From positions 1-64,000 of the forward strand of contig JAKSIJ010000015.1 in NCBI GenBank assembly GCA_024398875.1: a stretch of 64,000 nucleotides of DNA, in the 5' to 3' direction. Positions 33,964-49,107 of the stretch are shown in pieces (the first letter of the stretch is position 1; each line of letters opens with the position of its first letter). Below the pieces are notes generated by a model. That model saw nothing but the letters and a program-made list of their open reading frames with translations, did not search any database and was not told the origin of the DNA. The position numbers and the translations under genes are program-made. This DNA is from Fibrobacter sp. GTDB taxonomy: Bacteria > Fibrobacterota > Fibrobacteria > Fibrobacterales > Fibrobacteraceae.

Positions 33964-35064
33964 TTACCTGCGTCCGTATTCGTTCAGCTGGTTCCACAAA
34001 AAGTCCGTATTCACGTCCCGATAACCCAGTGAATTTACCTTTTCTCTCAATTTGTGGGCCATTTCAAATAAATTAGGGCAATTTTGCATTCGCTCAAAGC
34101 TGTCAAAGATGGTGAGTCTGTCAATCCACTCACTAATTTCCGGGAATAGTTCGCTAGAAAACTTGTTTTCACGCCCGCGCTTCAAATACTCCAGATAACG
34201 GTCTGTAATCTTGTATCCGTCCTCCACGAAAATTTTCATGGCGTCAGGGAAAAGCTTTTCTCCCGTCAGATATTCGTGGATGATGATGCCAAAACTGAAG
34301 TAATCTACGGAAGCGGAGAGATTTTCACCCATGATGGCTTGCTCTGGCGCACTATAGCAAGGCGTAAGCTGACCACCATATTCCGTTACGGTCTCTCGCA
34401 GTTTCGCCTGTGCGTAGCCAAAATCGCAAACCAGAATTTTGTGGTTGTTCTTGTGGGTTGGATCTTGGCAGAGTAGCAGGTTTTTGGGCTTCAAATCCTT
34501 ATGAACAATTTGATAATAATGGAGTTGGCTAATGGTGTTGGCCAGGTAGGCGATTTGTGCCACCCGATGGAGAATCTCTTCTTCCGTCAGCTCTTTTTTG
34601 AACAGCCGGTCCAAGGAGCAGCCTTTGATGAATTCCATCTTCAGGTAGGGGTGCCTGCCGGCAAGACCTCCACCCAAACTCTGGACGACTCCCTCGATGT
34701 TGGTCGCACGAATTAAGTTGTTGATGCGGATTTCGTCCTGAAAAGCGCTCAAAAGCATGTTCAGACGGTGAAGGCGATTTTTGCCTCGTGCCGCCCAGAA
34801 CTTGCAAATTTTCACGACGATTTCCCGCTCGCCATAATGTCGCTCGTCCCCTGGATGCTTAATCCAGAAGTTCGCTCGGTAGAGGTTGTTGGTTCCCTCT
34901 AGGGTAAGCGGTTCCAGCAACTCTATTTTCTCCATAGCACCGTTATGGAGAAAATCAGGATTCTGGTCAAACCAGCGTTGGTATTCCTCCATGCTGTATT
35001 GGGGGCGCAGCGCCAGGTTTCGGGAAGTCCTGTCTAGGAACTCTGCCAGAAAATTGCGAAGCAC
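33964..35064 (-). CDS. Serine/threonine protein kinase
   Basis: A 366-aa soluble Hanks-type kinase. It has the nucleotide-binding Lys K85 in EIVVKIC, the catalytic loop HKDLKPKN (D190, N195), the metal-binding DFG at 214-216, and APE at 239-241. A glycine-rich loop is poorly formed. There is no membrane helix or sensor domain, unlike PASTA kinases; about 45 residues precede the kinase domain. It starts 2 bp after the LOG-family gene, so the two are co-transcribed. The substrate is unknown. Confidence 0.88.
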   Translation of the reverse strand: MLRNFLAEFLDRTSRNLALRPQYSMEEYQRWFDQNPDFLHNGAMEKIELLEPLTLEGTNNLYRANFWIKHPGDERHYGEREIVVKICKFWAARGKNRLHRLNMLLSAFQDEIRINNLIRATNIEGVVQSLGGGLAGRHPYLKMEFIKGCSLDRLFKKELTEEEILHRVAQIAYLANTISQLHYYQIVHKDLKPKNLLLCQDPTHKNNHKILVCDFGYAQAKLRETVTEYGGQLTPCYSAPEQAIMGENLSASVDYFSFGIIIHEYLTGEKLFPDAMKIFVEDGYKITDRYLEYLKRGRENKFSSELFPEISEWIDRLTIFDSFERMQNCPNLFEMAHKLREKVNSLGYRDVNTDFLWNQLNEYGRR

Positions 35065-35066
35065 GA

Positions 35067-35897
35067 TTACTTGATTTCTCTATTCCAGGTGAGTACGGTC
35101 CATTCGTCGGCCTGTTTTTCCAAGGCCTCGGTAATGATCTTGTAGGCTTCATCCACATCATCGCAGAAGTGGAAAAGCTTCAAGTCTTCCTTGTTAATCA
35201 TGCCCGTTTCCGCAAAATATTCCCAGTTGACTGCCTTCTTCCAGAACTTGGAGCCGAAGATGATGACGGGAATCTGCTGTGCGTACTTGTCGGTCTGGAT
35301 AAGGGTCAGCATTTCAAACATCTCGTCCAAAGTGCCGAAACCGCCAGGGAAGACCACCAATGCGCGGGCCTTTTTCAGGAACCAATACTTACGGATAAAG
35401 AAGTAGCGGAACTGCAAGTTCAATGCTTCGTCAATGTAAGGATTGGGATGCTGCTCAAAGGGCAGCTTGATGTTTAAACCGATAGAAGGCGTTCCTACAT
35501 CGGTAGCACCGCGGTTGCCAGCTTCCATAATGCCCGGACCACCACCAGTCATGATGGCGTATCCGTTGTGCTTTTTGTTGGCCCAGCGGCCAAGTTTTGC
35601 ACCAAGTTCTCGTGCGGCATCGTAGTATTCCGCCACAGATTCCAGGGCTTTCAATCGGGCAAGTTTTGCCTTGTCTTTGCAGCCTTTCCGCTGTTTCTTG
35701 ATTTCGGACATGGGGAGGGTGCGGGCGGAACCGAAGAAAACGATGGAATTGCGCACATCTTCTTGGGCAAAAACCAGTCCGGGTTCAAAAAATTCAGCCA
35801 AAATGCGGAGAGGGCGTCCAGCATCGCTTTCCATAAATTCAGCATTGTGGTAAGCCATTTTTCCTGGTGCAGGATGAATCATCTTTTTAATAGCCAT
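35067..35897 (-). CDS. LOG-family nucleotide 5'-monophosphate nucleosidase
   Basis: A 276-aa Rossmann-like protein of the LOG/TIGR00730 family. LOG enzymes cut the base-ribose bond of nucleoside monophosphates, including cytokinin precursors. The two signatures are present: MTGGGPGIMEAGNRGA and PGGFGTLDEMFEMLT, with the catalytic Glu. The start at 35897 is set by GGAGG; five in-frame codons upstream lack a site. It is longer than typical ~190-aa LOG proteins because of an N-terminal extension of ~70 residues. It is followed after 2 bp by a protein kinase gene. Confidence 0.87.
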   Translation of the reverse strand: MAIKKMIHPAPGKMAYHNAEFMESDAGRPLRILAEFFEPGLVFAQEDVRNSIVFFGSARTLPMSEIKKQRKGCKDKAKLARLKALESVAEYYDAARELGAKLGRWANKKHNGYAIMTGGGPGIMEAGNRGATDVGTPSIGLNIKLPFEQHPNPYIDEALNLQFRYFFIRKYWFLKKARALVVFPGGFGTLDEMFEMLTLIQTDKYAQQIPVIIFGSKFWKKAVNWEYFAETGMINKEDLKLFHFCDDVDEAYKIITEALEKQADEWTVLTWNREIK

Positions 35898-36011
35898 AAA
35901 AACCTCCGTCATTTACAAATGTGAATGGCAATATTCTTCAATAAAATACTCTTTTCTGCAAAAAAACGTAAAAAATTTTGTTTTTATCTTCTTCCAATTT
36001 GGAAAAATCTT

Positions 36012-36399: not shown

Positions 36400-37656
36400 T
36401 TATCGTTTGAACTTTTCCGCGCACTGGATGGCTTCTTTGACGATGTCCTCTTCGCCATCTACATGCCCGTTCCGCATCACAAACTTTCCATTGCAAATCA
36501 CGGAATCAATGGCGTTTGAATCTGCACCATAAACCCAGTTGGAGATTACATTGTAGCATGGCACCATGCGTTCGTTGTCCAGCCGTACCAGTAGGGCATC
36601 CGCTAACTTTCCTTCCTCAATAACGCCAGCGTCCCAGCCAAATGCCACGGCGCCATTTCGGGTGGCCATTTTCAAAATGTCTTCCGCTTTAAGAGTGTCG
36701 GCGCTACCGCCAGGGCAGTTCTTTTCGAGAAGGGCTGCAAACTTCATGTCCTCATGCATGTCCAGGTTGTTGTTGGAGGAGGCTCCATCGGTACCGATGG
36801 CAAGGGGAATGCCTTTTGCTATCATGGCCGGTATCTGTGGAATTCCGCTGACCAACTTTAAGTTGGAACAAGGATTGAGGGCAATCGTGGCTCCTGTTCT
36901 TTTGAGAATGTTGTAGTCGTTATCCACCATATTGGTGCAATGGGCGGCTACCCAGTGCACACCTTCAATACCACAGCGTTCAAAAAGTTCTGCAGGCGTG
37001 CATCCATATTTCTCTTTGCACTGCAAGTTCTCATATAAAGTTTCAGAAAGATGGGTGTTCAGCACATAGCCCTCTTCCCGGGCAGTCTCAATGCAGCGTT
37101 TAAGCAGTTCTTTATTTACCATGTACACGGAGTGGGGCATGACGGAAATTTTGATCCGTTCGTTTTCTCCCCAGTGGTCGTGTAAAAATTTGAAGTTTGC
37201 TTCCATGGCGTCTGCGGTAGTAAGGCCCTCGGCAATGGTTACGCCAATGGTGGCGCGAATGCCCATTTCGTTCACGACCTTCATGGTGTTCTGACGGTGC
37301 CAGTACATATCCGCAAAAAAGACGGTTCCGGATTTAATCATTTCCAAAACGGCAAGCCGGCTGCCGATTTCGATGTCTGCATAAGTCATTTTGGCTTCGA
37401 AGGGCCAGATGTATTCCCGCAACCACTTGTTCAATTCCATGTCGTCGGCATAGCCACGCAAAAGAGTCATAGCGGCATGGGTGTGGGCGTTATAGAATGG
37501 AGGGAGAATGGCAAGTCCCTTGCAATCCACGACATCGGTATTCTTGAGTGTGGTAGCGTCAATGCTATCGGCAATCTTTGCAAATTTTCCCTGTGTAATG
37601 AGAATGTCGCAGGTCTTGTTATCTTTGTAAACGGACTTTAGAAGTAAATCGTTCAT
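36400..37656 (-). CDS. mtaD: 5-methylthioadenosine/S-adenosylhomocysteine deaminase family amidohydrolase
   Basis: A 418-aa metal-dependent amidohydrolase of the MtaD/TrzA/SsnA branch. Metal ligands are visible in FYNAHTHAAM, NTHLSETLYE, WVAAHCTNM and IGTDGASSNNNLDMHED. Close relatives deaminate MTA, SAH or other adenosines to inosine derivatives, so a purine-nucleoside substrate is likely; guanine deaminase or chlorohydrolase activity is less likely. It is the last gene of the alarmone/anti-sigma/MATE operon, 9 bp after the MATE gene. Confidence 0.85.
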   Translation of the reverse strand: MNDLLLKSVYKDNKTCDILITQGKFAKIADSIDATTLKNTDVVDCKGLAILPPFYNAHTHAAMTLLRGYADDMELNKWLREYIWPFEAKMTYADIEIGSRLAVLEMIKSGTVFFADMYWHRQNTMKVVNEMGIRATIGVTIAEGLTTADAMEANFKFLHDHWGENERIKISVMPHSVYMVNKELLKRCIETAREEGYVLNTHLSETLYENLQCKEKYGCTPAELFERCGIEGVHWVAAHCTNMVDNDYNILKRTGATIALNPCSNLKLVSGIPQIPAMIAKGIPLAIGTDGASSNNNLDMHEDMKFAALLEKNCPGGSADTLKAEDILKMATRNGAVAFGWDAGVIEEGKLADALLVRLDNERMVPCYNVISNWVYGADSNAIDSVICNGKFVMRNGHVDGEEDIVKEAIQCAEKFKR

Positions 37657-37665
37657 AGTTGACTC

Positions 37666-39378
37666 TTATATTTTTGGAAATTCAAAAACGTGGCGGTTGT
37701 AACTCGTGGTGAGTACGTAGGCTCTTTTTTCTTGGTAAACCATCAAACTTGTCACCATATAGGCACGCAGATTGGAAACGGACATTTCCAGATTAGTCAT
37801 GTCCAACAATTTTCCAGAATTTTTCAGAATGAGGGAAACGCTGTTTTCTTTTGCTAACAAAGAGCATTCTCCGTAATGCATTTTCCCTTTGTTTTTTTCG
37901 ATGAAGGCCATGTTCATCTCTTCAATCAGAAGCATCGCCTTCATGCGGATGTTGGGGCTGACGCCCTCGATAGTGAGGCTCTTGGCGACTTGGTCCCGCA
38001 GGGAAACAATGGCGGCGGGGGTCATCGGATAATCAAACTGGTAATAGCAGTTTTGGTCAAATTCGTTGAGGAACAGCGGAAATTCGGTGCGCCCAAACTT
38101 GAGGATGAATATGAGACTGCATAATCCGAGAGTAAAAATAGGGGCTAGCGCGCATCCTGCCCACAAACCGGTTTTACCAAACTGAATGCCCATGAGCGTG
38201 ATGACTGTGACGGGAACCGCCAAATTTCGCATCACGGAAATGAACATGGCGAACCAGGGGTGCTCATGAAGGTAATAATTGTTGTACAAATTCACAAAGG
38301 CGAGCGCTAATAGGCCCAGGGAGGCGATTCTGATAGCTGCAGCAGTGGAGTTTTGTAACTCAGGGGTCTGGATGTGAAACAAAAGTACCAGCAGTGGGGC
38401 GCAAACGAAAGCCCCAATTGTTACGAAGAGGCCTTCAAAGAAAGCGGTCCCGTTCACATAGTGCATTAGTCGCCTGATTCCAACTGCGTTTTCTTCGGCG
38501 CGGTAGATGTTGATGAGGGGTTCTGCCGCTTGCCAGATGCCTCCGAATATAACGGTCATTTCCAGACCTTCGAACATCACGGAAAGGGTAGTGAGCGTGT
38601 TCTCGTCAAAGTATCGGGTGACGAATTGGGAAAGTAGAAAAGTCAGTAATGCAAGGTAGAGATATTCGCAGGCTTCTACGGCACTGAAGCGAAATGCCAC
38701 CAAAACATCTTTGAAATTTAGATGGAATTTGAAACGAAGAGAATTCTGTTTTTGAAAAAAATGAAGACTCAAAATAATGAGTCCAACAAGCGAAGAAATG
38801 AATGTGCCTAGCACAATTCCTTCCATCCCGTATTTTCCTCCAAGAATCCAGGATAGCAGAAAGTTTCCAATGATGAGGATGCCGTTGTGGAAATTTACGA
38901 TGCGCGTGTCTCCGTCCGCCTGCACCATGTTCATGAGTACGCAGGAAAGGGGAATCAATAGGGAAACCCAAGGGAACCACTTCATGAATTGGTTAATATA
39001 GGGAGCCAAGTCTGCAGTGGGATTCATGATGCCTAAAACAAGGCCGCTACCGATGGTATTGACCCCAAGCAGAATGCATCCCGCAATAATTGCAAGTATA
39101 ACCGCTTGTCCGAAAAATTCGTACGCCCGCTCTTTGTTTAACTTTCCGATTTCGTAGGTGTAGCAAACAGAACTGCCAACGGCAATGGCGGTTCCAATAA
39201 ACAACATGAATGAATAGATGGGGACAATATGAGTGTAAGCCGCAAGAGCGGTTTCCCCTAACAAATGGCTAGAAACGAGGGTGTCTTCAAAAATTGTCAC
39301 AAGCCACACCACGATGGATGCGCTCGCCGACAACAGCAGTGAGAAAAAGCGCCGGACGCTAAAAGACAGGTTTTGCAC
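37666..39378 (-). CDS. MATE-family transporter with C-terminal RsbW-like domain
   Basis: A 570-aa membrane protein. Residues 1-430 carry about twelve hydrophobic segments with MATE features (FEDTLVSSHLLGETALAAY at the start, VQADGDTR in the first half, a second half from ~225). MATE proteins export cations, drugs or metabolites using Na+ or H+. Residues 445-570 are a soluble domain aligning with the adjacent RsbW-like ATPase: LLIEEMNMAFIEKN at the N-box position (E486, E487, with Ala at the usual Asn) and LKNSGKLLDMTN at the DxG position. Key ATPase residues are lost. The GTG start follows the STAS stop with no gap. Confidence 0.85.
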   Translation of the reverse strand: MQNLSFSVRRFFSLLLSASASIVVWLVTIFEDTLVSSHLLGETALAAYTHIVPIYSFMLFIGTAIAVGSSVCYTYEIGKLNKERAYEFFGQAVILAIIAGCILLGVNTIGSGLVLGIMNPTADLAPYINQFMKWFPWVSLLIPLSCVLMNMVQADGDTRIVNFHNGILIIGNFLLSWILGGKYGMEGIVLGTFISSLVGLIILSLHFFQKQNSLRFKFHLNFKDVLVAFRFSAVEACEYLYLALLTFLLSQFVTRYFDENTLTTLSVMFEGLEMTVIFGGIWQAAEPLINIYRAEENAVGIRRLMHYVNGTAFFEGLFVTIGAFVCAPLLVLLFHIQTPELQNSTAAAIRIASLGLLALAFVNLYNNYYLHEHPWFAMFISVMRNLAVPVTVITLMGIQFGKTGLWAGCALAPIFTLGLCSLIFILKFGRTEFPLFLNEFDQNCYYQFDYPMTPAAIVSLRDQVAKSLTIEGVSPNIRMKAMLLIEEMNMAFIEKNKGKMHYGECSLLAKENSVSLILKNSGKLLDMTNLEMSVSNLRAYMVTSLMVYQEKRAYVLTTSYNRHVFEFPKI

Positions 39379-39675
39379 TTAGACGATAGTCAGGATGTCA
39401 CTGAATCCGGTGACATCAAGGACTTCCTTGATTTCCGGGCAGACATTGCGGACTTCCATCTTGCCTTGCTTGTTCATCTTCTTTTGAGCGGCAAGCAAAA
39501 CGCGGAGGCCTGCGGAAGATACATAGACCAACTTGGCGAAATCAAAGGCCAAATCGGTAACGCCTTCCAGGCTGTTGTTGACTTCAGCTTCCAATTGAGG
39601 AGCTGTCATGGTGTCCAGGCGACCTTCCAGGGCGAAGGTGAGGGAGGAGTTTTCTTTTGTCTTTACGATTTCCAT
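39379..39675 (-). CDS. STAS-domain anti-sigma factor antagonist (RsbV-like)
   Basis: A 98-aa single STAS domain. It has the LEGRLDTMTAPQLEAEV opening and the phosphorylation loop VYVSSAGLRVLL, in which S54 occupies the position phosphorylated in SpoIIAA/RsbV. Unphosphorylated STAS proteins of this type bind the kinase-like anti-sigma partner. The RsbW-like partner gene ends 8 bp upstream. No sigma factor or PP2C phosphatase is seen nearby, so the final target may be another protein. Confidence 0.92.
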   Translation of the reverse strand: MEIVKTKENSSLTFALEGRLDTMTAPQLEAEVNNSLEGVTDLAFDFAKLVYVSSAGLRVLLAAQKKMNKQGKMEVRNVCPEIKEVLDVTGFSDILTIV

Positions 39676-39683
39676 GTTATCCT

Positions 39684-40085
39684 CTATGCTAAATTCTTGT
39701 AAATGGTTAGTTGATTTTTGTTGTCGGCGCGTTGGTATTCCATACCATCCATGGTCTTCTTCACAAGGAAAATCCCAAGGCCACCAATCTGCCGTTCCTC
39801 GGCGGAAAGAGTGATGTCAGGGTCTGCCTTGATGAGGGGATTGTAGGGAACGCCGGAATCAATAAATGTGAGTTTGACCTGTTTGGGGTCGTTCTGAACT
39901 TCCACCTGAATGGTGGCGTCTGCTGACTTGGAATAATGGACTATATTGCTGAAAAGTTCGTCAATAGCCACGTTGAGCTGCATTTGGGCCTTCATGCTGG
40001 GATTGTAAGATTCCAACGCAGACTCCACAAAGGCTGTAACCTTGTCCAGATTTTCTAAGTCTGTATGTACCGTAATCTCTTCCAT
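39684..40085 (-). CDS. RsbW-like anti-sigma/serine kinase ATPase
   Basis: A 133-aa GHKL-fold (HATPase_c_2) protein. The N-box LNVAIDELFSNIVHYS (E43, N47), G1 FIDSGVPYNPL (D76) and G2 IGGLGIFLVKK are all intact, so ATP binding and phosphorylation of the neighbouring STAS protein are expected. In RsbW/SpoIIAB systems this protein holds a sigma factor inactive until STAS binds it. The absence of a sigma gene and the presence of a related domain on the MATE protein suggest a different client. Confidence 0.9.
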   Translation of the reverse strand: MEEITVHTDLENLDKVTAFVESALESYNPSMKAQMQLNVAIDELFSNIVHYSKSADATIQVEVQNDPKQVKLTFIDSGVPYNPLIKADPDITLSAEERQIGGLGIFLVKKTMDGMEYQRADNKNQLTIYKNLA

Positions 40086-40101
40086 TATATTCTTAATGTA
40101 G

Positions 40102-41511
40102 TTATTTCAAAACAGTTTTGTGGAGGTGATCTAGCATCCAGGGGTCAAATTTACCGGTGCGGTTACTGAAGAATATCATGTAAAGACAGGCGTAAGGTGC
40201 CAATTCTTCCGTTTTTGCTGTGATATCAGTATCCTCACCGAAATATTCTCGCAGGAAAATGTTCCAAATTTGGAGAATTTGCGCTTTGGTGATGTGGTAG
40301 AGTTTTTCCACCAAGAAATCAGGGGTGTTTTGGCATACGAAGTAGAACATTCCGAAATCATAGTAAGGATTGCCGTAGCGGAAGTCCGCCAAATCGATCC
40401 AATAGTATTTTCCCTGACTTACAATCATGTTCCCGATATGCATATCGCCATGGAGGCAGGTAGATGTTGCAGGGGTATTTGAGATGAGTTGGACGAACTT
40501 GTACTTTTCTTCGTCCGTCAAGAGCTTATTGTTGTTGATGGCTTTCTTGAAATGTTCTTCGGCAGAATTGAAGATATTTTTATCGCAAGGGGTACCGTGA
40601 AGCTTTTTGCAAAGCCGTGCAAACTCTCGCGTATAGAATTCCAACTTCTCGGGCTCCTCAGAAATTGCCCGTGCAATAGATTTCTTGGGTGTGATACGCT
40701 CAAATTCAATGCCTGTCCGTTTGCCATCGGTCACAAGCCGTAGTGCTTTGGGCGTCACAATTCCAGAATCTAGGACAGACCAGGCCACCTGCAGTTCTTT
40801 GGCGGGTTCTGTAGAGGGGATGAAGTCGGAATAGAGTTTCATCATGGTTTTCCCGTTCTTGTGGTTGTAGCTGATGGCGGTATAGCCGTCGCCGCTTTCC
40901 ACATAGTCGTCCATGTTGATGAGTTCGGGTTTGGGTTGCCCAAAAATCTCATTGATGGCCTTGGCGAATTCTGTGTAGGCGTGAGAACCCACCAAATCGC
41001 TCAAGGCGTCAGCCAGACCGCGGTAATGCCACTCATGTTCTGCGGGATCTTTCGTGTGGAAGAGATTCCAAACCTTATCTCCGATTTCCTTGTAATCACG
41101 AAGAATGGCTCTTGCATTGCTGAGCTTGTCGCCCATAGCCACAATTTTTGCATCTCGGGAGGCGTTTTTCAGGCGATTGATGGCGGCCTCCTTACGGATG
41201 TGCCAGCTATCCTCTTCGCTAAGTCCTTCAATGAACTTGTCGGATTCCTCTTCAACGATTTTGGCAACGCGGTCGCCGAATTCGTGGCGGATATCCTCTA
41301 CGGTAACATCAGTATCTTCTACGGTATCGTGAAGTGCGGCGGCTGCCAAAAGCTCCTGGTCCTTGGTCAGGGTGGAAACGATTTCAACAGCTTCCAGAGG
41401 ATGAACGATGTAAGGGAAACCTTTTCCGCGACGCTCCGTTCCTTTATGGGCGTTGACTGCAAAAACAATTGCCTTGTCTAATAGGGATGTGTCTAAAGGT
41501 TTATTTGCCAT
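40102..41511 (-). CDS. HD-type alarmone hydrolase domain fused to APH-like kinase
   Basis: A 469-aa two-domain protein. Residues 1-190 are a RelA/SpoT-type HD hydrolase: H37 in YIVHPLEAV, H61-D62 followed by E65-D66 in ALHDTVEDTDV, and D128 in MGDKLSNARAI. The metal and ED residues of active (p)ppGpp hydrolases are kept. Residues 205-469 are an aminoglycoside phosphotransferase/choline kinase-like domain with catalytic LHGDMHIGN (D356, N361) and metal-binding WIDLADF (D373). A Fibrobacter paralogous family of APH-like proteins is known (TIGR02172, recalled, not searched). The alarmone synthetase gene ends 6 bp upstream. Confidence 0.87.
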   Translation of the reverse strand: MANKPLDTSLLDKAIVFAVNAHKGTERRGKGFPYIVHPLEAVEIVSTLTKDQELLAAAALHDTVEDTDVTVEDIRHEFGDRVAKIVEEESDKFIEGLSEEDSWHIRKEAAINRLKNASRDAKIVAMGDKLSNARAILRDYKEIGDKVWNLFHTKDPAEHEWHYRGLADALSDLVGSHAYTEFAKAINEIFGQPKPELINMDDYVESGDGYTAISYNHKNGKTMMKLYSDFIPSTEPAKELQVAWSVLDSGIVTPKALRLVTDGKRTGIEFERITPKKSIARAISEEPEKLEFYTREFARLCKKLHGTPCDKNIFNSAEEHFKKAINNNKLLTDEEKYKFVQLISNTPATSTCLHGDMHIGNMIVSQGKYYWIDLADFRYGNPYYDFGMFYFVCQNTPDFLVEKLYHITKAQILQIWNIFLREYFGEDTDITAKTEELAPYACLYMIFFSNRTGKFDPWMLDHLHKTVLK

Positions 41512-41517
41512 AAAATC

Positions 41518-42627
41518 TTACTTGTTCATGAATGAAAGTTGTTTTGCTGTAGCCATCATTCTTGCCGCACGCTTGTTGTTGTAGTCGGATTCTCCGTACA
41601 AGACGTCGAACATGCTCTTCAGGGCCAGTTCTCCACCGCCATTGCTCAAGAGGTAGACCACCACAAGGTTTTGTACGGCAACAGAAGAATTGATGATGTC
41701 AATGTCGGTTCCGGCAATTTGGTAAACAGCCAACTGGTAGGCGTCGTCGCTGAAATGGGCCTTCATCTTTTCCACATCACCCAAGGTTTTAAAACGAAGA
41801 AAACGGAAAACTTTTAGGTAGCCAGTCATGTCGGAATCGTGGATTTCAGCTTGGTTGATGGCGGCAATCTTCTTATTGAGCTTGTCAAAGGGATTCAACT
41901 TCATGTAGTTGCTGAAGGAATCTCCATCCAGGGGAACTTCGTCGAATTTGCCAGATGCCACCAGCGACTGCACCTTGCGGCGGTAGTCCGTAATGCCAAC
42001 GCGGATGAGACTGAACTGCTCGTCGGCCAGTTCCAGCATACCGGCAAGGCGGTTCATGTTTCTCAAGTATTCTTTGGGGATTTCCACATCGGTTTTGTAC
42101 CCCATGTCGTGGTCAATGGTAGACCACACGTGCTGCAAGGCGGTTCGCATCTGGAGTTCAAAACGGTATTCGTTGATTTCCGGGTGTTCCGGGTCGTAGT
42201 ACAAGGTTTTGGGAATGCTACAGATGTAGTGGAGGGAACTGTAGCCAAAGCTGTGGAGTTCGTGCATCTTTCGTTTGTCGATGCTGTTCTGCCAGTCGAT
42301 GTCAAAAACGTGGTCCACCAGGGCCGCAATCTTGTCCACTTCGTCGGTGTAGAAGGTAATGATTCGCGCACCGAGAATGTCCGTTAAATCGGAAAGGTTG
42401 GTGTACTTGGCGCCTTTGAGTTCAAGCTTCCCTGCAAGGGATTTTTCTGCTTTGATGCGGATTTCAAGAGCATTGATGTAAAGGTTATTTTGCTGAATGC
42501 TGTCTTCCAATGCCTTTTTGACAATGGATTTCATCTTCTCAAAAATAGGGAGTCTTTCGCGATACTGCTTTAAAATGGAATTGCAGTGCTCGTTCAGACC
42601 ATATTTATCTAGGGGATTTTCACTCAT
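41518..42627 (-). CDS. RelA/SpoT-domain (p)ppGpp synthetase without hydrolase or TGS/ACT domains
   Basis: A 369-aa protein whose first ~190 residues are a RelA/SpoT nucleotidyltransferase domain: TDILGARIITF (D83), HSFGYSSLHYI (125-135) and RFELQMRTALQHVWSTIDHD (E157 and the following H). All catalytic motifs appear intact. The other ~180 residues are helical with no TGS or ACT domain, so it does not resemble ribosome-bound Rel. It could make pppGpp/ppApp or pyrophosphorylate another substrate. It is first in a six-gene operon. ATG 42627 is 6 nt after TATATT, with no Shine-Dalgarno; an in-frame GTG is at 42633. Confidence 0.87.
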   Translation of the reverse strand: MSENPLDKYGLNEHCNSILKQYRERLPIFEKMKSIVKKALEDSIQQNNLYINALEIRIKAEKSLAGKLELKGAKYTNLSDLTDILGARIITFYTDEVDKIAALVDHVFDIDWQNSIDKRKMHELHSFGYSSLHYICSIPKTLYYDPEHPEINEYRFELQMRTALQHVWSTIDHDMGYKTDVEIPKEYLRNMNRLAGMLELADEQFSLIRVGITDYRRKVQSLVASGKFDEVPLDGDSFSNYMKLNPFDKLNKKIAAINQAEIHDSDMTGYLKVFRFLRFKTLGDVEKMKAHFSDDAYQLAVYQIAGTDIDIINSSVAVQNLVVVYLLSNGGGELALKSMFDVLYGESDYNNKRAARMMATAKQLSFMNK

Positions 42628-42633
42628 ACCCAC

Positions 42634-42639
42634 AATATA
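42634..42639 (-). promoter_or_regulatory. TATATT -10 element 6 nt from the alarmone operon ATG
   Basis: On the minus strand TATATT is followed by GTGGGT and then ATG. No clear -35 or Shine-Dalgarno is seen. A leaderless transcript for the six-gene operon is likely. Confidence 0.45.
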
Positions 42640-42726
42640 ATCAATTAATAACTTCGTTATTCTTGATAATGCGTCTCGGTCATAAAAATAAACAAGTTTA
42701 TTTTTGCGACGCTCGACTTAGTTATC

Positions 42727-42761
42727 AATTAACAATTAACAATTCATAATTCACAATTAAT
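42727..42761. repeat. Heptamer array (AATTNAN x5)
   Basis: Five consecutive 7-bp units: AATTAAC twice, then AATTCAT, AATTCAC and AATTAAT. Same period and core as the arrays at 33934 and 53345. Confidence 0.8.
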
Positions 42762-42784
42762 TTCTGACAGAGACGGCTAACAAT

Positions 42785-42840
42785 GCTGAATGCAGAATGC
42801 AAAATGCTGAATGCAGAATGCGGAATGCGGAATGCAGAAT
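42785..42840. repeat. Heptamer array (GCNRAAT x8)
   Basis: Eight consecutive heptamers with a fixed GC at positions 1-2 and AAT at 5-7; only positions 3-4 vary (TG, AG, AA, GG). It is directly followed by TAATTC. Confidence 0.9.
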
Positions 42841-42872
42841 TAATTCTCAGACACGGTATTTCGTTTGACACA

Positions 42873-42907
42873 ATTCATCATTCAGCATTCTTAATTCATA
42901 ATTAATT
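42873..42907. repeat. Inverted heptamer array (ATTCNNN)
   Basis: Units ATTCATC, ATTCAGC, ATTCTTA, ATTCATA and ATTAATT. These are in the opposite orientation to the array at 42785, so the two could pair in single-stranded form. Confidence 0.75.
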
Positions 42908-42916
42908 TTTGTCTGC

Positions 42917-42948
42917 GTCATTGCGAAGGGCGTAGCCCTGTGGCAATC
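42917..42948. repeat. GTCAT...ATC palindromic repeat, copy 3
   Basis: Begins GTCATTGCGAAGGGC and ends GGCAATC, with AGGGC and GCCCT forming the stem around GTA. Same ends as the copy at 15955. Confidence 0.65.
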
Positions 42949-43007
42949 TAAAAGAATCTAAAGAAGTATCAGCCTGTGATAAAATTATGAATTGTGCATT
43001 TTGAATT

Positions 43008-43619
43008 TTAAATTTTCAGCAATTCTTCCATCCATGCGTCGCGTTTTTTGCGAAGCGCTTCTAGGGATTTTTCGTCTGCGGCACTTGCATCGCGAGCAGC
43101 CATCAGTTCGCGGTAGCCTGCGCCTAGCGACTTTGCTTTCGGATAATCCGCTTCCAGCTTAACCAAAGCCTCCAAAATTGCTTCGTCGGAGTACAGTCGC
43201 GAGACTCCTTCCAGATAGCGCTCAATGTAAAGTTTGCGGTCTCCGGCTGCTTTTGCCTGGGTTGCTTCTTTGAATTCTAGGGGGGTGATTTTGTCTACCC
43301 AGGCACATTCTTTTACGTACAAATTATCGCATTCCACATAGTTGGCGTTGTCCTTTGCCAATTCCAATTGCTTTTGTAGCAGGGGTTCATATTCTCTTGT
43401 GTCAAAGTCAAGCCCGTTTTCCTTCCCGAAATCTGCCAGGTTCATCAAATTCAAGGTGGATGCGTTGTTCAATAGGCATTCCTTTAGCACTGCCAGCTTG
43501 TCTTTAGGGGCAAGGGACTTAAATGCCTTTGTATCTCCGGTACTGGATTTTACATGGAGCCAGAACACCCGGAGGAGTAGAAGACCGATGGCAATGGCAA
43601 AAATGATAGACCAAATCAT
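43008..43619 (-). CDS. Hypothetical membrane-anchored protein
   Basis: I do not recognise this 203-aa protein. Residues 2-22 are one hydrophobic segment (IWSIIFAIAIGLLLLRVFWL), giving a single N-terminal anchor. The remaining ~180 residues are helical, with ankyrin- or TPR-like spacing, and rich in Lys, Glu and Ala; they probably lie in the cytoplasm. It appears monocistronic and is divergent from the fibro-slime gene across 194 bp. Confidence 0.6.
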   Translation of the reverse strand: MIWSIIFAIAIGLLLLRVFWLHVKSSTGDTKAFKSLAPKDKLAVLKECLLNNASTLNLMNLADFGKENGLDFDTREYEPLLQKQLELAKDNANYVECDNLYVKECAWVDKITPLEFKEATQAKAAGDRKLYIERYLEGVSRLYSDEAILEALVKLEADYPKAKSLGAGYRELMAARDASAADEKSLEALRKKRDAWMEELLKI

Positions 43620-46500: not shown

Positions 46501-47790
46501 TTATCGCTTGTCTCGGTCAACCCAAGGACGAGCGGCTCTTCCCATGTAAATCTGGCGCGGGCGATTAATCTTGCTTAGCGGATCGTCGTGCATTTCTTTC
46601 CAGTGGGCAATCCAGCCTGGCAAGCGTCCGATGGCGAACATCACCGTGAGCATGTTCGTCGGGATGCCCATTGCGCGGTAAAGAATGCCGGAGTAGAAGT
46701 CCACGTTGGGATAAAGTTTGCGGGCAATGAAGTAGTCGTCCTTCAAGGCTGCTTCTTCAAGCTTCAAAGCGATATCCAACAGCGGGTCCTGAACGTGTTC
46801 GCGTTCAAAGACCTGGGTCATGAGTTTCTTCAAAACCTTGGCACGAGGGTCATAGCTCTTGTACACGCGGTGTCCGAAGCCGGAAAGGCGGAATGGGTCG
46901 TTCTTGTCCTTGGCCTTGTCCATCACTTGCTCAATGGTCATGCCGCTCTGCTGAATGCGGAGCAAGGTTTCAAGCACGGCCTGGTTTGCGCCGCCATGGA
47001 GAGGGCCCCACAAGGCGCAAATGCCTGCACAGATGCTAGCGTAAAGGTTTGCCTGAGAACTTCCCACCATACGGACGGTAGAGGTGGAGCAGTTCTGCTC
47101 ATGGTCTGCATGAACAATAAGCAGCGTATTCAGGGCCTTCTCCATAATCGGGTCCGGGTGATAAGGACGGGCCTTACTACTGAACATCATGTTGAGGAAG
47201 TTGCTGCAATAGCTCCGTTCTGCTTCAGGATAAACAAATGGTTCGCCGATGCTTGCCTTATAAGAGAAAGCGGCAATGGTGCGAATCTTGGAAATGAGAC
47301 CTGCGGTAGTCAGTTCGAAAGCGCTGGCCACATTTTCATCATCATAGAAGCGGGGGGTGAAAAGGCCCACTGCATTCACAATGGAACTGAGAATGCCCAT
47401 GGGGTGGGCACTAGGTGGCATTTCGCGGAAGAAGTGCAACAGGTTCTCGTGGAGAAGTGCGTTTTCCGTCAAAAGGGTGCGGAAGTGGCTAAGCTGTTCC
47501 TGGTTGGGAAGCTCGCCATAAATCAAGAGCCATGCGGTTTCGGGAAATGTGGCTTTTTCTGCCAGGTCTTCGATGGAATAGCCGCGATAACGGAGAATGC
47601 CGTTCTCGCCATCTACGTATGTGATGGAACTCTTGGTGCTTCCGGTATTCAAATAGCCGTAATCCAGCGTTACCAGTCCGGAATCCTTACGGAGAGCGCT
47701 GATATCCAGACCGTGTTCGTGCTCGGTGCCCTCTATGACGGGGAGTTCGTAACTGTTTCCCCCATAATTCAAGGTTGCTTTTTCGGACAT
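46501..47790 (-). CDS. gltA: Citrate synthase
   Basis: GltA condenses oxaloacetate and acetyl-CoA. The 429-aa protein has the three catalytic positions: His in GPLHGGANQAVLE, His in SGFGHRVYKSYDPR and Asp in YPNVDFYSGI. HADHEQNCSTSTVRMVGSSQANLYASICAGICALWGP is typical of the type II hexameric-like proteobacterial form. GGAGG 4-5 nt before the ATG supports the start. An aminotransferase gene ends 21 bp upstream, suggesting a joint role in oxaloacetate/2-oxoglutarate and amino-acid carbon flow. Confidence 0.95.
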   Translation of the reverse strand: MSEKATLNYGGNSYELPVIEGTEHEHGLDISALRKDSGLVTLDYGYLNTGSTKSSITYVDGENGILRYRGYSIEDLAEKATFPETAWLLIYGELPNQEQLSHFRTLLTENALLHENLLHFFREMPPSAHPMGILSSIVNAVGLFTPRFYDDENVASAFELTTAGLISKIRTIAAFSYKASIGEPFVYPEAERSYCSNFLNMMFSSKARPYHPDPIMEKALNTLLIVHADHEQNCSTSTVRMVGSSQANLYASICAGICALWGPLHGGANQAVLETLLRIQQSGMTIEQVMDKAKDKNDPFRLSGFGHRVYKSYDPRAKVLKKLMTQVFEREHVQDPLLDIALKLEEAALKDDYFIARKLYPNVDFYSGILYRAMGIPTNMLTVMFAIGRLPGWIAHWKEMHDDPLSKINRPRQIYMGRAARPWVDRDKR

Positions 47791-47811
47791 GAATCCTCCG
47801 TTTCCCGTTTA

Positions 47812-49107
47812 TTACTTCGTCATCATCTTGATGGCGTTATAAATGTTATCAAACAATTTAGGCAATTTTTCGGCGGGAACAGCGCTGAAGGCAAGGCGAA
47901 CCAGGCCAGAAAGAACGATGGTTCCCGTGCTGTAGTCGGAAATCAACACTTTTCGGAGTTCCTCGGCATCTACACCCTTAGGCTTTACGCACATAAAGTA
48001 GCCACTGTTGCAGGGCATGGCCTCAAATGCGTCCTTGTATTCCGGATGGCTGGCCAGCACTTCCTTGATGATGTTGAAGCGTTTTTTGAGGGTGTTGTAC
48101 TTCTCTTCCTTTTCCTTCAGGTATTCTTCACTCTGGTAGGCAGCCAAGAGAATCTTCTGACTGATGCTGGGAGCGTTGGAAATGTTTCCGCGGACAACGC
48201 CGGCGGCTTTGCTTTCCAGGGCCTTTAATTGGGCGGCAGTAGCACCCTTGAATCCGAAGCTCATGAAGCCGACGCGGAAGCCCCAGACGTAGTCTTCCTT
48301 GGTAGGGCCGTCCAGTTTGACTGCCAGCAGGTTTTCGTGGGCGTCCACGAGCTTTACAAAGAGGGATTCCTTTGTTACGCCTTCTTCATAGACCAGTCCA
48401 AAGTAGGCGTCATCCAGCAGGGCCACCACTTTATTTCCGGCTGCGGCGCTCTCGGTGAGAATCTTCGCAATCTCTGCGGCTTCCTTTTCTGTTGCAGTAT
48501 AGCCCGTAGGATTGTTGGGGAAGTTCAGGAGAACGACTTTTTTAGTGCTCTTACTACCAGCGAGAGCGTTCTTCAGGGCTTCAGTGTCAAAACCGCCGTT
48601 CTTGAAGGTGTTAAAGGTGGATATCTTTGCCCCGCGGCCATTCTCAAAAACAAGCTCGTAGTTGTCCCAGTACAAATCGGGAATAATCACCTCGTCGCCG
48701 GCATCCAAAAACAGGTAGGCGGCGCAGCTGATGGCGTGGGTCAAAGCGCAACTTACAACGGGGTTGCTGAATTCCTTGCCTTTAAGGCTCGGATTCTTGC
48801 GAACAATCTGTTCTTTCCAAGCCTTGCGCAAGTCCGGATTGCCATAACTGGGGGCGTAAAGAAAAGCATTTTTCGGGAGGTTTAAGGACTTTTGCACGCA
48901 GGGGAGTGTGAGTGGGCTTCCGTCGTCTTCCAGAGCAGTACCGATGGTGGCGTTGATTTCGGAGCCTTTGGCTTCCGCTCCCTGACCAAGAATGCCTTTG
49001 CTGGGGAAGAATATGGCTTTGCCTTGCTCGGAAAGCATGCCAAATACGCTGCAACCATTGGCAGAGAGCTCTGCGTTCAATTGTTCAGCGAGAGGATTGT
49101 AATTCAT
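47812..49107 (-). CDS. PLP-dependent class I/II aminotransferase
   Basis: A 431-aa fold-type I aminotransferase. Landmarks are APSYGNPDLRKAWKEQ, CALTHAISCAAYLFLDAGDEVIIPDLYWDNYEL, NFPNNPTGYTAT, LLDDAYFGLVYEE, and the LDGPTKEDYVWGFRVGF region with the expected PLP Lys and Arg. This pattern is close to uncharacterised aspartate/aromatic aminotransferase-like proteins; the amino acid is not clear. The start at 49107 is set by AGGAC; the upstream in-frame ATG lies in a spacer. It precedes gltA by 21 bp. Confidence 0.82.
   Translation of the reverse strand: MNYNPLAEQLNAELSANGCSVFGMLSEQGKAIFFPSKGILGQGAEAKGSEINATIGTALEDDGSPLTLPCVQKSLNLPKNAFLYAPSYGNPDLRKAWKEQIVRKNPSLKGKEFSNPVVSCALTHAISCAAYLFLDAGDEVIIPDLYWDNYELVFENGRGAKISTFNTFKNGGFDTEALKNALAGSKSTKKVVLLNFPNNPTGYTATEKEAAEIAKILTESAAAGNKVVALLDDAYFGLVYEEGVTKESLFVKLVDAHENLLAVKLDGPTKEDYVWGFRVGFMSFGFKGATAAQLKALESKAAGVVRGNISNAPSISQKILLAAYQSEEYLKEKEEKYNTLKKRFNIIKEVLASHPEYKDAFEAMPCNSGYFMCVKPKGVDAEELRKVLISDYSTGTIVLSGLVRLAFSAVPAEKLPKLFDNIYNAIKMMTK

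Follow-up and report, generated by a model that had tools for sequence, protein, structure and literature searches.

A possible partner switch with a membrane exporter as its output, and an associated alarmone enzyme pair, in Fibrobacter

In this work we ask what could unite, within a single bacterial gene run, two enzymes of alarmone metabolism, a serine kinase and STAS protein of the RsbW/RsbV type, and an exporter of the MATE family. The question is raised by a stretch of 64,000 nucleotides from Fibrobacter sp. (GenBank assembly GCA_024398875.1, contig JAKSIJ010000015.1; hereafter the window), which corresponds to contig C7 of a 2.78 Mb host genome in 90 contigs (G000). Here six minus-strand open reading frames (ORFs) occupy positions 36400-42633 with gaps of 6, 16, 8, 0 and 9 bp (Table 1). 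The gene order, strand and gaps given in the initial annotation of this DNA were identical on recheck, and Pfam and NCBIfam searches confirmed all of the families. A scan of the run placed zero minus-strand terminator-like sites between the six genes; a few weak ones fall within the MATE reading frame, and their total count is at the level of shuffled sequence. From sequence comparisons and structural models we propose that the run may encode a partner-switch module with a membrane exporter as its output, to which the alarmone enzyme pair is coupled, a reading to which we assign slightly less than an even chance.

The evidence central to this proposal lies at the C-terminus of the exporter. 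Pfam calls no HATPase domain on the window MATE protein; distant homologs of the fusion match PF13581 (E 1e-9), and an hhalign alignment of 12 RsbW sequences to 21 MATE C-termini drawn from three phyla gave a probability of 96.6% (E 6e-10). Since a sequence-only search of the domain against PDB chains returned nothing significant (best HtpG, E 0.4), a fold search was needed. With an AlphaFold2 (AF2) model of the domain (pLDDT 79, pTM 0.73) as query, Foldseek placed Bacillus subtilis RsbW, from the RsbV/RsbW complex, first among PDB entries (E 1e-4); ranks 1-16 were taken by anti-sigma kinases of the RsbW/SpoIIAB type (B. subtilis RsbW, SpoIIAB and mycobacterial UsfX), followed by the Leptospira response regulator LvrC at ranks 17-18, with a histidine kinase far lower. 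The full-length AF2 model (pLDDT 87) has a MATE fold that ends in the RsbW-like domain, and its MatE domain and multi-helix fold predict a function in export. Relative to RsbW, the C-terminal domain retains the Glu of the N-box and has lost its Asn and the G-loop, while DxG has become NSG in the window protein, leaving a GHKL/RsbW fold devoid of ATP-binding and kinase motifs. Across the 21 sequences, E, N, E, G, T, NR and F positions are invariant, and a new C-terminal ending, T-x3-NR-x2-F, has appeared. As the catalytic motifs are lost while the new ending is invariant, the domain is best described, from alignments and models, as a pseudo-RsbW (pseudo-kinase) under constraint rather than junk; hhalign, AF2/Foldseek and motif loss thus agree with the degenerate RsbW-like domain that the initial annotation had placed on the transporter.

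This architecture sets the protein apart from two better known types of transporter. It shares the PF01554 membrane domain with MATE multidrug exporters; unlike those pumps, it has an additional pseudo-RsbW domain of ~140 residues and is encoded with biosynthetic or signalling genes rather than as a stand-alone gene. SulP/SLC26 transporters, which carry a C-terminal STAS domain (PMC8256260), likewise combine a transporter with a cytoplasmic domain of a partner-switch family. The Fibrobacter arrangement is their mirror image: here it is the kinase-like partner that is attached to the transporter, while the STAS protein is a separate polypeptide free to diffuse, and phosphorylation could therefore reverse docking.

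Known partner switches release sigma factors, and a small number control other proteins. Kinase and STAS protein of the Fibrobacter run retain the expected motifs: the HATPase_c_2 domain of RsbW has its N-box (DELFSNI), DSG and GGLG motifs intact in alignment, corresponding to the N-box, DxG and GxG elements of RsbW/RsbV systems, and the STAS protein, whose PDB matches are SpoIIAA/RsbV, has a candidate phosphoacceptor at Ser53 or Ser54, within SSAG. It had been noted initially that neither a sigma factor nor a PP2C phosphatase is nearby. Indeed, neither gene lies within the six-gene run, and no sigma factor of the SigB/F/G class exceeded the cut-off genome-wide (TIGR02980 gave six weak sigma-70-family matches). 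The part of this claim concerning PP2C must be narrowed, as four SpoIIE proteins encoded elsewhere in the genome make PP2Cs available in trans, and in relatives a dCache-HAMP-SpoIIE protein is fused to a window-type RsbW or adjacent to it. Only two proteins of the window genome have an RsbW-type domain over cut-off, namely the window RsbW and a SpoIIE-RsbW fusion on contig C8. A STAS protein with a phosphoacceptor Ser and an HATPase_c_2 kinase are shared with the RsbU/RsbV/RsbW and SpoIIE/SpoIIAA/SpoIIAB systems of Bacillus, the third protein type of which, PP2C, would here be supplied by one of the SpoIIE proteins; unlike in those switches, no SigB/F/G-class sigma was found and the exporter has a second, inactive RsbW-like domain. 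The module would work like an RsbW/RsbV switch, yet is not classed as a sigma switch because of this lack of a sigma factor over cut-off.

In the mechanism that we propose, the unphosphorylated STAS protein would dock on the pseudo-RsbW domain of the exporter as RsbV does on RsbW, and docking would open, close or stabilise the exporter. Free RsbW would phosphorylate the STAS protein at Ser53/54 and so release it, while a SpoIIE-type PP2C acting in trans would dephosphorylate it and restore docking; the putative resetting PP2C has, in relatives, a dCache-HAMP sensor and is fused to or beside RsbW. The synthetase-hydrolase pair would set the level of (p)ppGpp (or of a related nucleotide). It would be tied to the same switch, either feeding into it or, like SiaD under SiaC, forming a second output controlled by the STAS protein. 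We consider it fairly probable that the pseudo-kinase domain of the exporter serves as the STAS dock, and the balance tips narrowly towards a functional coupling of the alarmone pair to the switch. A switch with the exporter as its client is the most economical way to give every part a role. The shuttling of the STAS protein between RsbW and transporter, first suggested in the initial annotation, is therefore kept as the best available reading, because the pseudo-RsbW domain is real, no SigB/F/G sigma was found, and MATE, STAS, PP2C and RsbW genes occur together in another phylum; the docking that it invokes is our inference.

Exporters with a pseudo-RsbW domain were located by a scan of a genome collection with a 4-sequence MATE alignment (a 17-sequence alignment was too diverse), and occur in Fibrobacter, Selenomonadales (Bacillota) and Spirochaetia/Treponema, mostly in metagenome-assembled genomes (MAGs) and in many cases from the ruminant gut. 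In two gut Spirochaetia MAGs (L206:2729-13620 and L208:2689-13620), genes for a nonribosomal peptide synthetase (NRPS), STAS protein, MATE-pseudoRsbW, SpoIIE and RsbW follow one another in that order, adjacent genes being separated by no more than ~50 bp or slightly overlapping. Judged from sequence, these loci each hold a complete partner switch and exporter in one gene run, and are candidate peptide-type clusters that carry their own partner switch. Genes for a pyridoxal phosphate-dependent aminotransferase and a decarboxylase-like protein lie upstream at L206. Within Fibrobacter we distinguish clade A, comprising the window-type MATE, from clade B, another MATE-pseudoRsbW group, whose members sit with NRPS genes, usually with SpoIIE and often with a STAS gene.

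These neighbourhoods also bear on the partner of the pseudo-RsbW domain. RsbW is a dimer, and the pseudo-domain could heterodimerise with soluble RsbW instead of binding the STAS protein, so that the membrane exporter would serve to anchor or sequester the kinase. The two domains share a fold, their genes are one gene apart, and every genome with a clade A or B exporter has RsbW, all of which would suit such pairing. However, in three clade B clusters (L076, L079 and L080) STAS and PP2C genes lie beside the MATE gene with no RsbW gene nearby, which indicates the STAS protein as the direct partner, and we regard heterodimerisation as quite improbable.

With regard to the exported compound, on Selenomonas ruminantium plasmid pSRC2 (L188:10628-14988) the fusion gene lies between a GCS2 (glutamate-cysteine-ligase-family) gene and a gene for a 452-aa protein that has no Pfam match; a near-identical pair of MATE and 452-aa protein is present in S. 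ruminantium HD4 (L189). Further relatives sit by ATP-grasp or LuxC enzymes, and at the Selenomonadales locus L191 no biosynthetic cluster of the NRPS, GCS2, ATP-grasp or LuxC sort was seen. Because its members adjoin NRPS, GCS2, ATP-grasp and LuxC enzymes, the exporter class, as far as gene neighbourhoods indicate, tends to accompany the synthesis of small molecules of an amide or peptide type. Export of a nucleoside product, as envisaged in the initial annotation, is unsupported and was dropped: the deaminase gene adjoins the MATE gene in the window species only, and related exporters accompany NRPS, ATP-grasp, GCS2 or LuxC enzymes, which point to peptide-like products. The deaminase, whose best NCBIfam matches fall below cut-off and whose PDB relatives include the methylthioadenosine/S-adenosylhomocysteine (MTA/SAH) deaminase 4f0r, is probably incidental to the module. 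The window genome encodes two more MATE-pseudoRsbW paralogues, each beside a single-module NRPS (L076 and L077); a sigma-70-family gene lies ~4 kb from the L077 paralogue in the same direction.

The alarmone enzymes form a pair of a recognisable kind. The synthetase has a RelA_SpoT domain at residues 59-182, with DILGARI, GYSSLH and ELQMRT motifs all intact and an uncharacterised C-terminal extension; having no ACT or TGS domain, it belongs to the small alarmone synthetases (SAS), and its nearest solved structures are SAS of the RelQ/RelP/YjbM/YwaC type. The hydrolase has an HD part at about residues 11-170, nearest in structure to HD small alarmone hydrolases and MESH1, and an APH-like kinase part at residues 198-423 belonging to TIGR02172, a Fibrobacter succinogenes paralogous family; its HDTVED and HGDMHIGN motifs are intact. 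A separate long RelA/SpoT homolog is encoded on contig C12 (G000:C12), so that the window enzymes constitute an additional alarmone pair. Sequence and catalytic motifs are shared with RelQ/RelP synthetases and small alarmone hydrolases, unlike which the window SAS is C-terminally extended, the HD part is fused to a TIGR02172 kinase, and a partner switch is linked. The adjacency of the two genes and the intact motifs of both products would also fit a toxic SAS (toxSAS) and HD antitoxin, as in FaRel and its hydrolase, lying fortuitously upstream of the switch. This we disfavour as very improbable: the nearest solved relatives are of the housekeeping RelQ/RelP type, toxSAS was not found among the structure matches up to E 0.01, SAS orthologues are widespread in Fibrobacter at 60-68% identity and hold a stable site in many genomes, and the HD protein survives where the SAS is lost.

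A neighbourhood survey of 151 Fibrobacterota genomes was used to examine whether these genes travel together. The six genes do not form a conserved co-occurring set: the complete set was found in one species, that of the window, in which the near-identical locus L205 (Fibrobacter sp. Horse_feces19 MAG019) is truncated at its SAS end by the contig boundary, and a conserved six-gene system was rejected. What recurs is a series of smaller linkages. The SAS and HD hydrolase genes adjoin in most Fibrobacter. Clade A exporters (36-41% identity, 15 genomes) are mostly distant from the SAS; they adjoin a STAS gene and a dCache-HAMP-SpoIIE(PP2C)-RsbW fusion in G037 and G125, SpoIIE-RsbW and STAS in G079, and STAS in G102. 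A similar switch unit adjoins the SAS gene in G004 and G001 and is divergent from it in G141, G063 and G122 have SpoIIE and STAS next to it, while in G115 and G094 it has a STAS gene nearby. In total, switch genes lie near the SAS in 8 of ~46 genomes, including that of the window, against a chance expectation of ~0.2-0.4 that uses a distance of 3-6 kb and an approximate locus count per genome; to account for this linkage, the SAS tree requires no fewer than 4 changes and the gltA tree 7. Furthermore, in G125 (L073:6024-12770) two GGDEF genes, a dCache-HAMP-SpoIIE-RsbW fusion, STAS and MATE form one tight run, in which both GGDEF genes have intact motifs and occupy the SAS/HD place upstream of switch and exporter, so that predicted cyclic-di-GMP enzymes (diguanylate cyclases) replace the alarmone enzymes. 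The tie to alarmones that had been postulated from the window holds as a recurrent genomic association, and could run in either direction, as input or as second output.

Such recurrence bears on whether the run is a chance operon, in which an SAS-hydrolase pair, an RsbW-STAS pair whose target has escaped notice and an exporter bearing a vestigial domain have come under one promoter in one species. The species-specific full set, the unconserved position of the deaminase and the absence of ATP-binding motifs from the exporter domain are what one would expect of it, but it does not explain why pairwise linkages recur independently, why a full switch-plus-exporter run exists in a second phylum, or why the pseudo-domain is constrained at positions invariant in 21 sequences from three phyla. 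We therefore consider a chance operon unlikely.

The same survey raises an alternative client for the switch. In Pseudomonas aeruginosa the phosphatase SiaA and kinase SiaB control SiaC (PMC7647112), which activates the cyclase SiaD (PMC8457831). By analogy, the output in Fibrobacter could be the SAS itself, with the dephosphorylated STAS protein binding it, perhaps at its C-terminal extension, to turn (p)ppGpp synthesis on or off, and the MATE protein, although co-transcribed, being a secondary client or passenger. Both are non-sigma switches in which a kinase and a STAS or STAS-like protein, with a PP2C (in the window genome a candidate encoded in trans), stand beside a synthetase of a nucleotide second messenger; the Fibrobacter system, known from gene linkage, differs in that its synthetase is an alarmone SAS (GGDEF in G125) and in its additional component, the exporter that bears a pseudo-RsbW domain. 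Units of SpoIIE, RsbW and STAS lie beside the SAS with no MATE nearby in G004, G001, G063, G122 and G141. Moreover, in G086, G101 and G123 (L226, L227 and L228) SAS and STAS are absent and the HD gene abuts a SpoIIE-RsbW gene whose RsbW part has no glycine loop, as if decay of the kinase were coupled to partner loss, and kinase and SAS seem interdependent. However, an SAS-directed switch leaves unexplained both the RsbW fold of the exporter and the STAS-RsbW-PP2C-MATE operons of Spirochaetia that lack SAS, and the majority of genomes do not have the switch next to the SAS. It is the main rival reading, a minority possibility, and compatible with the exporter as client, given that one STAS protein could serve both.

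Several observations weigh against the exporter-centred module. The six genes stand together in the window species only; in 10 of the 15 clade A genomes the MATE gene is far from any STAS or RsbW gene; and in G063 and G122 the switch adjoins the SAS although neither genome possesses a clade A or B exporter, so that the MATE protein cannot be the sole output. In favour of the module, among 67 Fibrobacter genomes RsbW and STAS are present in all 42 that have the SAS, and SAS, RsbW and STAS in all 31 that have a clade A or B exporter, while STAS is missing from 15 of the 25 genomes that lack the SAS, although these raw counts are inflated by closely related genomes; against it, some SAS-less genomes also have RsbW/STAS. 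When kinship is corrected for, the co-occurrence of SAS and MATE is underpowered, though never in the wrong direction (independent pairs on the gltA tree: 5.4 same, 0 opposite, median p 0.06).

Table 1. Features of the gene run in the window and paralogous exporter loci of the same genome.
Feature	Position	Strand	Details
RelQ-like SAS, RelA_SpoT	41518-42633	-	371 aa; PF04607 E 1e-15
HD_4+APH fusion	40102-41511	-	469 aa; PF13328, PF01636, TIGR02172 above cut-off
RsbW-type serine kinase, HATPase_c_2	39684-40085	-	133 aa; PF13581 E 3e-21
STAS protein (RsbV/SpoIIAA-like)	39379-39675	-	98 aa; PF01740 E 1e-13, TIGR00377 above cut-off
Predicted MATE exporter, whole ORF (MatE)	37666-39378	-	570 aa; PF01554 E 1.5e-16
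MATE membrane domain, residues 1-427	38098-39378	-	PF01554; AF2 model
MATE C-terminal pseudo-RsbW domain, residues 428-570	37669-38097	-	hhalign, AF2, Foldseek, alignments
MTA/SAH/5'-deoxyadenosine deaminase-family amidohydrolase	36400-37656	-	418 aa; PF01979 Amidohydro_1
L076, clade B paralogue	G000:C12:136500-150500		
L077, paralogue	G000:C1:125000-139000		

Around the gene run, the intergenic region on its 5' side (window 42722-43016) contains several arrays of imperfect 7-bp repeats, for example AATGCAG x8.4 at 42782-42840. Farther along on the same strand (33964-35912) lie a LOG/Rossmann nucleosidase-like gene and a Ser/Thr protein-kinase-like gene, in an order identical in L205, and at 46588-48228 a 546-aa open frame is antisense to the citrate synthase gene.

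Full-text searches of open-licence PMC papers found no described system with the MATE/RsbW/STAS combination, in line with the initial annotation, which knew of none with this set, and neither MATE nor HATPase occurs anywhere in a review devoted to STAS-only proteins (PMC8256260). Partner switching, MATE pumps, SAS and small alarmone hydrolases are each already known; it is their combination that, within the open-licence literature searched, seems to be new. In more general terms we suggest, tentatively and at just below an even chance, that partner switching gates export post-translationally, with nucleotide messenger enzymes (the alarmone pair or diguanylate cyclases) wired in, in at least three gut phyla and often within peptide-type clusters. 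If true, bacteria would possess a direct, fast and reversible means of gating export through an inactive kinase copy on the transporter, with export switched by protein docking rather than transcription, and the RsbW/STAS/SpoIIE sets found as orphans in gut bacteria would acquire a testable output. The system would offer a concrete link between a stringent-response nucleotide and export, with the regulated exporter serving as a marker of biosynthetic clusters of the peptide type in Fibrobacter and Spirochaetia.

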